NCBI RefSeq assembly: GCF_001047135.2
Contig: NZ_DF968078.1
Coordinates: 168,666 to 232,665 of the forward strand
Reading direction: 5' to 3'
Length of the DNA stretch: 64,000 bases
Source: Fructobacillus tropaeoli
Lineage (GTDB): Bacteria; Bacillota; Bacilli; Lactobacillales; Lactobacillaceae
Every line of letters begins with the position of its first letter. The first letter of the stretch is position 1. Of the stretch, positions 17,917-21,680 are shown in pieces. The translations under genes and the position numbers were made by a program. Below the pieces are notes generated by a model. The model was not told where the DNA came from and made no database searches. It worked only from the letters and a program-made list of their open reading frames with translations.

Positions 17917-18988
17917 TTAAATTGCTGCGCGGTTAATCTTATCCGCCAAATCAGCTAAGCTGATTTTTTCGATTTGGGGTTGACCAATAGCGGTTAGGCA
18001 AACGACGTTCAGATAGCCATGACGGTTTTTCTTGTCGTTTTTAATTTTATCCATTAAACCGTCATCAGCTAATAATGGTGATGTTACTGGTAAGCCGACA
18101 ACTTCTAAACGGTCTCGCAGTTTCTCTAAGACCTCGTTGCTTTCATCCTGATCAGCAAAAATTGTGCTAATCGCAATCAGCCCTAAGCTAACCGCCTCCC
18201 TATGGCGAAGGTCACCGTTTGCCAGTGACTCAACCCCATGACCGATTGTGTGACCAAAATTCAATAGTTGCCGTTGGCCGCCCTCACGTTCATCCTGGCT
18301 AGTCACTTGAACCTTAAAGTCGAGCGCAAAATGAATCAACTTGGCCGCTTCTTGCAAAATGGTTGCCGGCGAATTAATTTGTAAAATCAGGGACCAAAAG
18401 TCGCCCCCAACTAAGGCTCCAGCCTTGACTACCTCACCATAACCCTCGACCAAGTCTCGCTGTGATAACGTTTTTAGCGTTTGAGGATCAATCAGGACCA
18501 AGTCTGGCTGGTAAAAAGTTCCCAGTATATTTTTCACCTGAGCCACGTCGACTGCCGTCTTGCCCCCCCACCGAACTATCTACCTGGGCAAGCAAGGAAG
18601 TTGGCACCTGGACAAAATCAATGCCCCGCATATAAACCGAGGCCAACAGACCGGTCAAATCGCCAACTACGCCACCTCCGAGGGCTAACAGACTATTGGT
18701 CCGATTAAAGGACGCTGCTGCCAACTGTTGGGCCAATTCTTCTAACTGGGCCAATGACTTCGAGTCTTCCCCATGAGGAACCACGGCAGTAACCACCGTA
18801 AAGCCGGCTTCGGTCAACTCATTGGCAATTTGGTCGAGGTACAGGGGACCAACATTGTCGTCCGTGATAATGGCGACTTTGCGCGGTGACCAGACTTATC
18901 GGACACGGTCGCCAAGTGTCTTTAACAAGCCATCTTCAATCACGACATCGTAACGCTGATTTGGCATTTTAACCGGAATCGTACTCAT
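17917..18988 (-). pseudogene. aroB: 3-dehydroquinate synthase, broken by a stop and a frameshift
   Basis: The reading starts at ATG 18988 (STIPVKMPNQRYDVVIEDG), 4 nt after the aroF stop. Codon 31 is TAA (18896-18898, between GDRVR and VWSPRKVAIITDDN). The frame then resumes through LALGGGVVGDLTG and QVDSSVGG, where a run of seven C on the plus strand (18563-18569) shifts it by one base; removing one base restores SSVGGKTAV followed by NILGTFYQPDLVLIDP. The C-terminal part contains EGYGEVVKAG and LLNFGHTIGHG (metal-binding His) to a normal end. Two separate lesions make a single base-calling error an insufficient explanation. If genuine, DAHP cannot be cyclised by this gene product. Confidence 0.9.
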
Positions 18989-18992
18989 GACT

Positions 18993-19979
18993 TTACCCCC
19001 GAATAATACTGTGAATGGCACGGGCCTGATTTGCCAGCTCTTCTAATTGCTTTGGCAACAATGCCTGAGGGCCATCGGAAAAGGCCTGGTCTGGATGATC
19101 GTGAATTTCAATAATCAAGCCAGCTGCACCCGCTGCCACCCCGGCCAAGGCTTCAGGACCGACTAAGCTCTCGTAGCCAGCCGCATGACTTGGGTCAACC
19201 ATGACTCGGTATGGCGACAACGCCCGCAAGACGGGAACTGCGCCAACATCGAGCGTGTTGCGGGTGTATTTATTATCAAAAGTCCGGATGCCACACTCAA
19301 CCAAAATAATTTGCTGGTTGCCACCTGCTGCAATATATTCTGCAGCGTTTAAAATATCATCAATCGTGGCGGACATGCCGCGTTTCAACATCACGGGAAT
19401 CCGTGTCTGCCCCACCGCCTTTAGCAGTGAAAAGTTCTGCATATTACGTGCGCCAATTTGGAAAATATCGGTATACTGGACCACTAAGTCAACATGGCTT
19501 TCATCCATTACTTCGGTGACCACGTCCAAATCGAAAGCATCTGCTGCTTCGCGAAGGTATTTCAGCTCCTCTTCGCCAAGCCCTTGGAACGAGTATGGTG
19601 ACGTTCGTGGCTTAAAAGCGCCACCACGCAAAACGGTTGCCCCAGCCTTCTTAGCCGCCTCTGCCATTAAAAAGACGTGCTCTTTTGATTCAACTGAACA
19701 AGGTCCAGCCATTAACGTTAGGCTTTGATGGTCAATTTGACTATGAGCAGTCTTGACGACAATGTCTTCGGTATGGAGCGCTCGACTACTTTGGACGGCC
19801 TTTGGATGGTCGAGAATAATGTCTGTGGCTGCTGCCCGTTCAGCCTCTGTTAAATCAGCGGTCGTTAAGCCCGTCAAAGCAATTCGTCTCCCATGGATAA
19901 AGACATCCGTTTTTTCAGCAAAACGCTCCTTTAAAGCTTGAAGCTTTGGGTCGGTACTTGATGCAAATTCGATAATCAT
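18993..19979 (-). CDS. aroF: 3-deoxy-7-phosphoheptulonate (DAHP) synthase
   Basis: Type I-beta DAHP synthase of 328 aa that condenses PEP and erythrose 4-phosphate, the first step of the shikimate pathway. A short N-terminal domain (about 1-75) precedes the barrel with LMAGPCSVES, LRGGAFKPRTSPYSFQGLG, VVTEVMD, QIGARNMQNFSLL, PVMLKRGMSATIDD and VMVDPSHAAGY. SD AAAGGAGAA lies 5 nt from the ATG. It is preceded by a long structured leader with a terminator, implying attenuation control, and followed by the broken aroB. Confidence 0.93.
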   Translation of the reverse strand: MIIEFASSTDPKLQALKERFAEKTDVFIHGRRIALTGLTTADLTEAERAAATDIILDHPKAVQSSRALHTEDIVVKTAHSQIDHQSLTLMAGPCSVESKEHVFLMAEAAKKAGATVLRGGAFKPRTSPYSFQGLGEEELKYLREAADAFDLDVVTEVMDESHVDLVVQYTDIFQIGARNMQNFSLLKAVGQTRIPVMLKRGMSATIDDILNAAEYIAAGGNQQIILVECGIRTFDNKYTRNTLDVGAVPVLRALSPYRVMVDPSHAAGYESLVGPEALAGVAAGAAGLIIEIHDHPDQAFSDGPQALLPKQLEELANQARAIHSIIRG

Positions 19980-20011
19980 CCTATTCTCCTTTAACCATAC
20001 AAAAAGCCAAC

Positions 20012-20050
20012 AAAAAACTCTCGTGCTGGTCCCTTACCACCACGAGAGTT
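20012..20050 (-). terminator. Leader terminator upstream of aroF
   Basis: Minus-strand hairpin with perfect 10-bp arms (AACTCTCGTG / CACGAGAGTT; plus-strand 20041-20050 and 20016-20025) and a U run, 30 nt before the aroF start. Its 5' arm can instead pair with upstream leader sequence. Confidence 0.85.
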
Positions 20051-20224
20051 TGTACCGAATCCTGGTCTCGGTCCGCCATGGTAAGTAACCGTGTGCGTGA
20101 CCGAGGAACATGTTGAAGCTATTGGCCACACAAAATGGAGTAACTGCTCCATTCTGTGCGAATCAAGCAGAAGCTTTACCAATAGCTATAAAATCGAACC
20201 GTCGTCCCTGCTTTCAACATGTTT
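20051..20224 (-). ncRNA. Structured aroF leader, possible attenuator, family not recognised
   Basis: Minus-strand RNA with nested pairings: P1 AACATGTTGAA/TTCAACATGTT (20210-20223 with 20107-20120), P2 AGCTATTGG/CCAATAGCT (20179-20187 with 20118-20128), P3 CACAGAATGGAG/CTCCATTTTGTG (20147-20158 with 20129-20140), and P4 CTCGGTC/GACCGAG (20099-20105 with 20067-20073). The 3' part of P4 can alternatively pair with the terminator's 5' arm (CGAGA with TCTCG, ACCA with TGGT), leaving a bulge starting TGGC. This looks like a terminator/antiterminator switch. The bulge recalls a T-box, but the conserved T-box 14-mer is absent. Confidence 0.6.
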
Positions 20225-20241
20225 TTGTCCTCTGTAAATTA

Positions 20242-20271
20242 ATTTATGCCTTTATTAAAGCACGGTATCAA
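20242..20271 (-). promoter_or_regulatory. Candidate promoter of the aroF leader
   Basis: TTGATA (20266-20271), 18-nt spacer, ATAAAT (20242-20247) on the minus strand, roughly 20 nt before the first leader helix. Confidence 0.45.
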
Positions 20272-20440
20272 ATAAAAATCAAATTAATCCCTCATCTTTT
20301 TATCATTTTATACACATAAACCAGTAAATGTTCTTGTTCTAAGCATTAGCGCCTGGTTGCTCACCGTGAAGACGATATGATTGACGGCCACTTGATTCAT
20401 GAGTTGAACTCATATATCGAATCACTTATTCAATTCGAGC
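20272..20440. other. Intergenic stretch without a recognised gene
   Basis: AT-rich next to the aroF promoter. From about 20358 the plus strand has a coding-like frame (REDDMIDGHLIHELNSYIES and onward) that lacks a start and SD and overlaps the next terminator, so it may be a gene remnant. Nothing else is visible. Confidence 0.3.
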
Positions 20441-20470
20441 AAAAAAGCTCCACCATTCACAGCGGAGCTC
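20441..20470 (-). terminator. Terminator after the small hypothetical gene
   Basis: Minus-strand hairpin AGCTCC...GGAGCT followed by six U, just downstream of the stop at 20476. Confidence 0.75.
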
Positions 20471-20475
20471 CTCGA

Positions 20476-20733
20476 TTATTGTTTTTGTGTCACTAAATCC
20501 AGCAAGCGCAAGACATCCGCTTGGTTCACCAGGCGGTGTTCGGCCACGTTATAAAACATTGGTTGATAACGCTCGATTTGCTCTAAATCGTGTTGGTTCG
20601 TCGTGCTGTGCTGAACGTCACAGGCATCCTCAATTCCGGCTAACGCTGGAAAATCAGTCGCACTCATAATCGATCCCATCACGGTATCGGCTGATTCGTA
20701 TTGCAAGGCCTCCAGATACTTTAAAACTTCCAT
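20476..20733 (-). CDS. Hypothetical 85-residue protein
   Basis: Not recognised. It is acidic and hydrophilic, without signal peptide or membrane segment (MEVLKYLEALQYESADTVMG at the start). A well placed SD (GAAGGAGG, about 5 nt from the ATG), the 23-nt gap after the aldo-keto reductase and a terminator directly behind it support a real gene co-transcribed with the reductase. No function is proposed. Confidence 0.6.
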   Translation of the reverse strand: MEVLKYLEALQYESADTVMGSIMSATDFPALAGIEDACDVQHSTTNQHDLEQIERYQPMFYNVAEHRLVNQADVLRLLDLVTQKQ

Positions 20734-20756
20734 TGAACCTCCTTCAGCCGTTATGC

Positions 20757-21680
20757 TTATTGAACGGGCTTATTCAAATATTCTTCGACATCGTCCCAAT
20801 GAGAAACTTCATCCTTGACTCCAGTGGTCTCGCTACCCTTGTGCCAGGCAAAGCTTGGGTACCAGATACTGTGCTTTTCTTGGTTAAGTGCCTTAATTTC
20901 AGCCACTTCATCAGGTGACAAAACAAAGTCATCAATTTGACTATTAGCAATAATGCGCTCTTCGTGGGCTGACTTTGGAATCGTGATGGCTCCCATTTGG
21001 TAATCAAAACGCAAAATCACTTGAGCAACTGATTTATCATGGGCTTGCGCAATTTTTTCAACGGCTGGGTTCGAGAGCGCTTCGCCACCGCCCAATGGTC
21101 CCCAGGCCTCCATTGCCATCCCAATCCCGTTCATATAGGTGAAGAGTGATTCTTCTTGAACCAATGGGTTAAATTCCATTTGGTTCACTTGTGGCATCAC
21201 GGTACCGGCTTCCAGCAATTCTTGGATTTTTTCTTCGTTAAAGTTTGAAATTCCAATGGCACGGACTTTGCCTTCACGATAAAGTTTTTCAACAGCGTGC
21301 CAAGTGTCGACATACTTGCCATCAACTGGCCAGTGAATCAACAATAAGTCCAAGTAAGTCAAACGCAATTGCTTCAATTGCTCCTCAAAGGCTTTCAAAG
21401 TTGTTTCATAACCTTGGTCACCGTTAAAAACCTTAGTCGTAATAAACAAGTCCTTCCGGTTCAAGCGGTTATCCTTTAAGGCCTGTTGTATTCCATAGCC
21501 AACACCGGGCTGGTTACCATACTGCTTAGCTGTATCAATCAATCGATAACCATTTTTAATGGCTACCTGGACGGAATCGGCGGCCTCCTTATTGGAACAC
21601 TTCCAAACGCCGAGACCGAAAACCGGCATTTCAACGCCGTTAGCGAGCTTCGTTGTTTCTTGCAAAATTGACTTTTCCAT
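20757..21680 (-). CDS. Aldo-keto reductase (AKR5-like)
   Basis: NADPH-dependent aldo-keto reductase of 307 aa, resembling 2,5-diketo-D-gluconate / methylglyoxal reductases. TIM-barrel motifs: LGVWKC at the start, catalytic Asp and Tyr in LIDTAKQYGNQ, catalytic Lys in FITTKVF, catalytic His in LLIHWPV, GISNFNEEKI and the cofactor loop IPKSAHEERI. ATG 21680 is chosen because it begins the family's normal N-terminus; GAGGGGA lies 8 nt upstream, and the longer frame has no homologous sequence. The physiological substrate cannot be read from sequence. Confidence 0.85.
   Translation of the reverse strand: MEKSILQETTKLANGVEMPVFGLGVWKCSNKEAADSVQVAIKNGYRLIDTAKQYGNQPGVGYGIQQALKDNRLNRKDLFITTKVFNGDQGYETTLKAFEEQLKQLRLTYLDLLLIHWPVDGKYVDTWHAVEKLYREGKVRAIGISNFNEEKIQELLEAGTVMPQVNQMEFNPLVQEESLFTYMNGIGMAMEAWGPLGGGEALSNPAVEKIAQAHDKSVAQVILRFDYQMGAITIPKSAHEERIIANSQIDDFVLSPDEVAEIKALNQEKHSIWYPSFAWHKGSETTGVKDEVSHWDDVEEYLNKPVQ

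Follow-up and report, generated by a model that had tools for sequence, protein, structure and literature searches.

We propose that the structured leader RNA of aroF in the window (the whole analysed stretch of DNA, 64,000 nucleotides in length) acts by ribosome-mediated transcription attenuation, with a short leader peptide ending in F-Y-S-Y-W-stop as the sensor of phenylalanine, tyrosine and tryptophan, a reading to which we assign, from the sequence evidence, a probability of roughly 0.86. What we observe is an open reading frame (ORF), its control codons, their conservation among relatives, two sets of helices that both carry compensatory changes, a terminator, and the link to genes of the aromatic pathway (Table 1).

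The leader-peptide gene and its conservation

The region from 20280 to 20005 has a folding energy of -109.3 kcal/mol, compared to a mean of -66.9 kcal/mol for shuffled sequences (sd 4.75, z -8.9), and none of 200 shuffles was as good. Its terminator is placed between the leader ORF and the structural gene. A pattern scan of 19900-20800 picked up neither a terminator nor a sigma-70-like promoter; the terminator may have remained unlisted owing to a stem mismatch and a long loop. What decides the interpretation of the leader is a short ORF preceded by a ribosome-binding site, which the preliminary description had overlooked. Its control codons agree with the regulated pathway, F-Y-S-Y-W preceding aroF in the window, and the presence of Phe, Tyr and Trp codons in the peptide supports the earlier suggestion of an RNA that senses aromatic amino acids, to which the leader probably responds.

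Table 1. Coordinates of the leader features and of the first genes of the operon in the window. Helices are named by their two segments; P1 joins segments 1 and 4b.
Feature	Position	Strand	Basis and pairing
Structured leader RNA	20271-20012	-	5' of aroF
Ribosome-binding site AGAGGA of the leader peptide	20228..20233	-	7 nt 5' of the start codon; from sequence
Start-codon region	20214..20223	-	Pairs with 20107-20116 and extends P1 in the window fold
Leader-peptide gene, encodes MLKAGTTVRFYSYW-stop	20176..20220	-	ORF behind the Shine-Dalgarno (SD) sequence
Control codons Phe-Tyr-Ser-Tyr-Trp, directly before the stop	20179..20193	-	Sequence; aromatic run also in relatives
Segment 1, 5' arm of P1, control-codon sequence AGCUAUUGGU	20178..20187	-	P1 duplex -15.3 kcal/mol
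Segment 2, CUGCUUGAUUC	20160..20170	-	Pairs with segment 3 in the read-through form; duplex -14.1 kcal/mol, covariation, independent set
Segment 3	20144..20159	-	20144-20154 with segment 2 (read-through); 20147-20159 with 20128-20140 (hairpin 2, terminator form)
Segment 4	20124..20140	-	20128-20140 closes hairpin 2; 20124-20132 (UGUGUGGCC) with 20094-20102 (read-through)
Segment 4b, 3' arm of P1, GCCAAUAGCU	20117..20126	-	P1 duplex and covariation
Segment 5	20089..20105	-	Whole segment with segment 6 (terminator form); 20094-20102 with segment 4 (read-through)
Segment 6	20066..20084	-	Pairs with the terminator 5' arm 20033-20049 in the read-through form; duplex, covariation, independent set
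Intrinsic terminator (segments 7 and 8) with U run	20012..20050	-	Duplex -24.6 kcal/mol
aroF, DAHP synthase, putatively under attenuator control	18993..19979	-	NF006421 (399.5 bits) and TIGR01361 (350.3 bits), each over its cut-off
aroB, second operon gene, reading frame disrupted	17917..18990 (ends approximate)	-	Early in-frame stop and later frameshift

To count leader-peptide genes we applied a fixed criterion (ATG with an SD sequence, 9-30 codons, a terminal aromatic run) to 98 aroF upstream regions, which comprise the best 90 of the aroF places listed and 8 of 80 further loci. Such ORFs were found in 30 of the 98 regions, whereas 9800 dinucleotide shuffles gave 18 and the 98 antisense sequences none; the 98 regions do not equal 98 distinct genomes, at least four of the eight added loci duplicating genomes or leaders already in the set (L107, L108 and L109 match loci already included, the leader of L106 is that of L030, and genome G281 occurs twice). 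One extra leader ORF, L025 on a truncated contig, was recognized by eye. A looser ORF scan gave matches in 35 of the 98 regions, several of them spurious, and all counts reported here rest on the fixed criterion. Most relatives have GGAGG or AGGAG at the equivalent SD position, and the peptides contain runs such as …RFYYYW…, …SYYYYWF… and …FSYYW…. The two Nicoliella (g32) leaders before aroF encode MLKDRMTVLFYSYW and MLKNRMTVLYYSFW, and forms such as MIKINSKINRFYYYWYA precede aroF in Lentilactobacillus (g13). A Trp codon is absent from 3 of 28 leaders (L055, L057 and L064).

A further 45 loci were found with the covariance model R1, which was built on 28 leaders and has the terminator-form helices as its only structure. 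In 44 of them an SD sequence, an ORF and an aromatic run are present, and the remaining locus, L211, has an ORF with a weak SD sequence. Because R1 contains the aromatic codons, their occurrence in these loci is not independent evidence; the start codon, which R1 lacks, the SD sequence and the frame are. A start codon (ATG, GTG or TTG) with an SD sequence lies in frame with the aromatic codons in 45 of 45 loci, and in each of the other frames in 0 of 45, the SD pattern having been broadened by AGAAG to admit L211. The locus L244 is an extra one outside the 45. A terminator is present in all 45 of these independent loci.

Conservation of the peptide itself bears on how the signal would be read. 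TnaC is an arrest peptide that senses tryptophan, and a nascent chain that arrests the ribosome in response to a free aromatic amino acid could, in place of slow decoding, operate this RNA switch, perhaps in the reverse sense. We consider this improbable. Many leaders do resemble each other beyond the aromatic codons (N-R-F-(S/Y)-Y-Y-W), and in the window genus and Nicoliella the Trp codon is the last before the stop; however, the residues around the aromatic run vary in what precedes it (SNTYYYYWFF, QSYYFWPR, VQYYYWSR), and tandem Tyr codons are, as is generally known, the usual mark of codon-starvation sensing.

The codons of the window leader can be set beside the genes of its host. Matches to tyrA, trpB, aroC and aroF were obtained in the genome, and prephenate dehydratase gave no match there, so the host may have routes to Tyr and Trp and none to Phe; perhaps it is a phenylalanine auxotroph that retains a Phe codon in the leader. 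The aroB frame is open in the near relative G100, whose leader is 98% identical, and the disrupted aroB of the window is either a pseudogene or an assembly error.

Alternative helix sets and competing RNA families

The segments of the leader can be arranged in two ways. The terminator form consists of P1 (control codons with segment 4b), hairpin 2 (3:4), hairpin 5:6 and the terminator 7:8, and the read-through form consists of 2:3, 4:5 and 6:7, in which segment 6 takes the 5' arm of the terminator. A bulged register that had first been assumed for 4:5 was replaced after comparison with Lentilactobacillus. Segment 2 starts 8 nt past the first base of the leader stop codon in the window, and its pairing starts inside the stop codon in Lentilactobacillus.

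Both sets are conserved among the relatives, as judged from alignments A3 and A5, which omit L106 and L107 (identical) as well as L025 (truncated contig). Over 27 distinct leaders, P1, 3:4 and 5:6 together have 91.2% of cells paired and changes on both sides in 18 of 26 pairs, with a covariation score above that of 500 of 500 shuffles, which, like all covariation shuffles used here, ignore kinship among the leaders. For 2:3 and 4:5 in the same 27 leaders, 86.6% of cells are paired, 10 of 21 pairs are changed on both sides (33 cells), and 0 of 500 shuffles were as good. Helix 6:7, assessed in 28 leaders, has 90.8% of cells paired, 12 cells changed on both sides and a covariation score exceeding 500 of 500 shuffles; the number of its pairs changed on both sides (3 of 9) is within the shuffle range (103 of 500). 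When the partner is displaced by 1 to 3 columns, 26-56% of cells remain paired. The pairs that fail in most rows are those of columns 126-144 in the terminator-form set and of columns 80-119 and 41-50 in the set of 2:3 and 4:5. In P1, 7 of 8 counted pairs show compensatory changes, the plainest case being L055, in which the arm UAUCAACC faces GGUUGAUA; Trp has been lost in 3 of the 4 leaders of g5.

The fit between partners was also judged by comparing the own partner of each segment to the median of partners from other groups. The own partner was better in 28 of 28 leaders for each of 2:3, 3:4, 6:7 and 7:8, and in 23, 22 and 13 of the 28 for P1, 5:6 and 4:5, respectively. Helix 4:5 is mostly invariant and is the weakest-supported of the antiterminator helices. 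An independent test was provided by the 45 further loci, the helices 2:3, 4:5 and 6:7 being absent from the R1 structure. For 2:3 (43 loci) the mean duplex energy was -18.4 kcal/mol with the own partner, -12.6 kcal/mol with partners from other genera and -9.1 kcal/mol with shuffled ones, and the own partner beat the swapped median in 36 loci and all 30 shuffles in 34. The corresponding energies of 4:5 were -12.5, -10.3 and -6.4 kcal/mol (swapped median beaten in 33 of 45 loci, all shuffles in 24 of 45), and those of 6:7 were -13.8, -11.7 and -7.1 kcal/mol (35 of 45 and 26 of 45). Segments 2 and 3 are missing from two loci of this set, L242 and L243 of the genus g12, where a short leader variant, perhaps a simplified attenuator, stands before an aminotransferase gene and the peptide ends in YYYFWFFHKHL.

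The compensatory changes in relatives bear out the architecture given in the preliminary description, namely nested helices, a separate hairpin, a terminator and a pairing that competes with it; they occur in both helix sets and support an attenuator with mutually exclusive structures. That description had named in advance two outcomes that would count against its structure, a strong Rfam match on the one hand and a lack of covariation and conservation on the other; both were checked, and the structure was not refuted.

The Rfam searches agree with the earlier remark that the leader matches no known RNA family. At gathering score no family was found over the leader in the window or in 20 loci (12 of them with an aligned leader), and none of the window's three Rfam matches is inside the leader. 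With E-values up to 10 the leader gave only SNORA63 and mir-4841 (opposite strand) and Mahella-1, all far below their cut-offs. Elsewhere in the window there is a lysine riboswitch (RF00168; 10860-11012, minus strand, 97.5 bits), and the Listeria sRNA family rli28 (RF01492; 22079-22269, minus strand, 68.1 bits with a cut-off of 45) is found between an aldo-keto reductase and a short-chain dehydrogenase gene.

In its helices, terminator and antiterminator the leader broadly resembles a T-box, and a degenerate T-box had been named as one possible example of an aromatic-sensing RNA; such a T-box would read uncharged tRNA-Trp, tRNA-Tyr or tRNA-Phe directly. T-boxes are indeed common in the same genome, and in two relatives they adjoin the leader (Lentilactobacillus (g13) loci L106, 3380-3621 minus, and L037, 858-1105 minus; about 135 nt away on the opposite strand). 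However, the T-box model RF00230 had no match in 19950-20480 with E-values up to 10, and at gathering score none over the leader in 12 leader-bearing loci. The covariance model thus argues against T-box identity: as positive control it picked out 22 T-box places elsewhere in this genome with E ≤ 0.001, 7 scoring above the cut-off, so an ordinary T-box at the leader would have been detected. What is conserved instead is a short ORF in one frame, and the read-through form lacks a T-box bulge. We therefore regard a T-box, however degenerate, as extremely improbable; of the original suggestion the aromatic attenuator is supported, and the T-box or riboswitch part is not.

No known riboswitch family matches the leader either. 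A metabolite-binding riboswitch, responding to an aromatic amino acid or an intermediate of the shikimate pathway and carrying the short ORF as a by-product, would account for a strong conserved structure at which Rfam finds nothing, and a shikimate-related ligand is mentioned as unpublished for opuB, another motif, in the available text of PMC11109978. Nevertheless, the alignments have few invariant columns, with no compact pocket seen among them, the SD sequence is kept together with the aromatic codons and their frame, and P1 consists of the control codons and covaries. A riboswitch is accordingly an unlikely explanation, and we return to attenuation by a translating ribosome.

Proposed mechanism and ribosome-position folding

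From this arrangement we infer translation of the leader, stalling, the ribosome footprint, the order of folding, read-through and switching in the following way. When charged tRNAs for all three amino acids are plentiful, the ribosome would reach the stop codon and cover segment 2 wholly or partly; 3:4 would then form, next 5:6 and next the terminator 7:8, and transcription would end before aroF. When Phe, Tyr or Trp is short, the ribosome would stall on the aromatic codons, blocking P1 and leaving segment 2 free, so that 2:3, 4:5 and 6:7 could form in succession, segment 6 would capture the 5' arm of the terminator, and aroF would be read through. A ribosome at the stop codon would reach segment 2 with its footprint, and one stalled on Phe or Tyr would not. 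As codons for Phe, Tyr and Trp are all present in the window leader, a lack of any single one of these amino acids should be enough to stall the ribosome. If the leader is not translated, P1 would form and termination would follow; the model fold suggests that in such an RNA the pairing of the start-codon region would hide the start codon.

We calculated equilibrium folds of the unfinished transcript with the ribosome placed at one of two sites, the first aromatic codon and the stop codon, and used the expected number of 6:7 pairs as the measure. In the window genus this number is 0.6 in both positions, and 5:6 wins throughout. The Lentilactobacillus mean hardly shifts (10.3 on the aromatic codon and 10.0 at the stop), the sole clear shift among leaders given singly being that of L022 from this genus (11.3 vs 5.3). 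Slight shifts in the direction opposite to the model were obtained for g5 (1.9 on the aromatic codon, 4.8 at the stop) and Nicoliella (0.3 and 1.3). Equilibrium folds of the full-length leader with a ribosome block likewise gave no switching in the window genus, and for the window sequence the order of folding would therefore have to matter.

The response of 6:7 to segment 4 was clear-cut in g5 and incomplete in the window genus and Nicoliella. When segment 4 is left free, 6:7 outweighs 5:6 in all 19 leaders of Lentilactobacillus and all 4 of g5, in 1 of the 2 from Nicoliella and in 1 of the 3 from the window genus; when segment 4 is taken, 6:7 still does so in 16 of 19, 0 of 4, 0 of 2 and 0 of 3, respectively. 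In these models the later strand exchanges appear to go as predicted in g5 and in part elsewhere, and they support the coupling unevenly. The first step, in which 2:3 would form before segment 4 exists, would be a question of transcription order only. We weigh the equilibrium results as evidence against the proposed mechanism, as we do the mostly invariant 4:5, the double-change count of 6:7, the g12 loci that lack segments 2 and 3, the leaders devoid of Trp codons, the negative promoter scan, the disrupted aroB and the missing prephenate dehydratase match.

Distribution, known attenuators and significance

R1 matched 74 of 397 sampled Lactobacillaceae genomes, representing 12 of 40 genera, among them Lentilactobacillus (g13), Secundilactobacillus (g20) and Nicoliella (g32). 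Within the window genus (g1) the element is present in 3 of the 13 genomes listed, the same three that have an aroF match. With stricter Infernal filters, R1 matched 4 of 295 genomes sampled at the level of the order, all four within Lactobacillaceae, and 1 of 398 sampled at the level of the class, which was the window's own, with none outside Lactobacillaceae. The genes 3' of the 74 leaders are aroF (29), transketolase (23), aroE (19), aminotransferase (2) and aroC (1); calls for the 45 non-aroF loci were made by tblastn, six representatives also by HMM, and the two aminotransferases are assigned without substrate specificity. At one locus, on a 344-kb plasmid of Nicoliella spurrieriana that is typed as non-mobilizable (NZ_CP093360.1), the attenuator is found together with aroF and aroB.

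The proposed mechanism has its closest parallels in the his, pheA and trp attenuators of Escherichia coli, with which it shares a short leader containing codons for the end product, alternative helices, an intrinsic terminator and a stalled ribosome that decides between them. It differs in that the peptide of the window has codons for all three aromatic amino acids, in the longer chain of helices (2:3, 4:5 and 6:7 against P1, 3:4, 5:6 and 7:8), and in having no Rfam match. The E. coli trp attenuator has four segments and the his attenuator six. In Firmicutes the T-box, which reads a single tRNA, is the best-known form of RNA control over amino-acid genes. The T-boxes (RF00230) that are also present in the window's genome make the same use of transcription attenuation for amino-acid genes; a T-box, as is generally known, reads its tRNA directly, whereas in the present leader three amino acids would be read by a ribosome.

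The his mechanism of E. coli is treated in PMC9413887 (available text). For Firmicutes, the available texts describe experimentally supported leader-peptide attenuators of ilv-leu genes in Listeria (Rli60; PMC5864092) and in Staphylococcus aureus (PMC5794164, where predictions for Lactococcus and Streptococcus are cited), and predicted his attenuators in Bacillus, Peptostreptococcaceae and Erysipelotrichales (PMC2965389, PMC9413887). These share with the present leader the ribosome-mediated control of amino-acid genes, but they serve other amino acids and other genes, and the available portions of these papers hold no aromatic case. A search of the open-access literature (titles and abstract openings, with subscription papers mostly outside its scope) found no description of an aromatic leader peptide in Lactobacillaceae, and the available main text of two genome-wide surveys of structured RNAs in which upstream-ORF motifs are listed (PMC8632094 and PMC11109978) contains no word beginning with Lactobacill-. 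Leader-peptide attenuation is thus known in Firmicutes for his and ilv, and the aromatic form of Lactobacillaceae appears to be new.

A more far-reaching version of this reading can be put forward tentatively, and we think it somewhat less probable than its opposite. It would make the leaders an attenuator class of Lactobacillaceae: a single peptide would serve as an OR gate for three aromatic amino acids by means of a seven-helix strand exchange, the stall site (Phe first, Trp last and nearest to segment 2) would grade read-through for each amino acid, and the supply of precursor would be included via transketolase. Erythrose 4-phosphate is made by transketolase and is a substrate of DAHP synthase; if this version is true, a leader before transketolase would raise erythrose 4-phosphate when aromatic amino acids are short.

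Since the chain of helices is longer than in the textbook cases, the leader is a fitting case in which to test co-transcriptional folding. One peptide suffices to read all three aromatic amino acids and one T-box does not, and lactic acid bacteria appear to use the ribosome as sensor where the shared first steps of a pathway serve three amino acids. The gene contexts suggest that in some lactic acid bacteria aromatic starvation is tied to transketolase, and the leader represents a concrete and testable regulator for aromatic amino-acid synthesis in this group.
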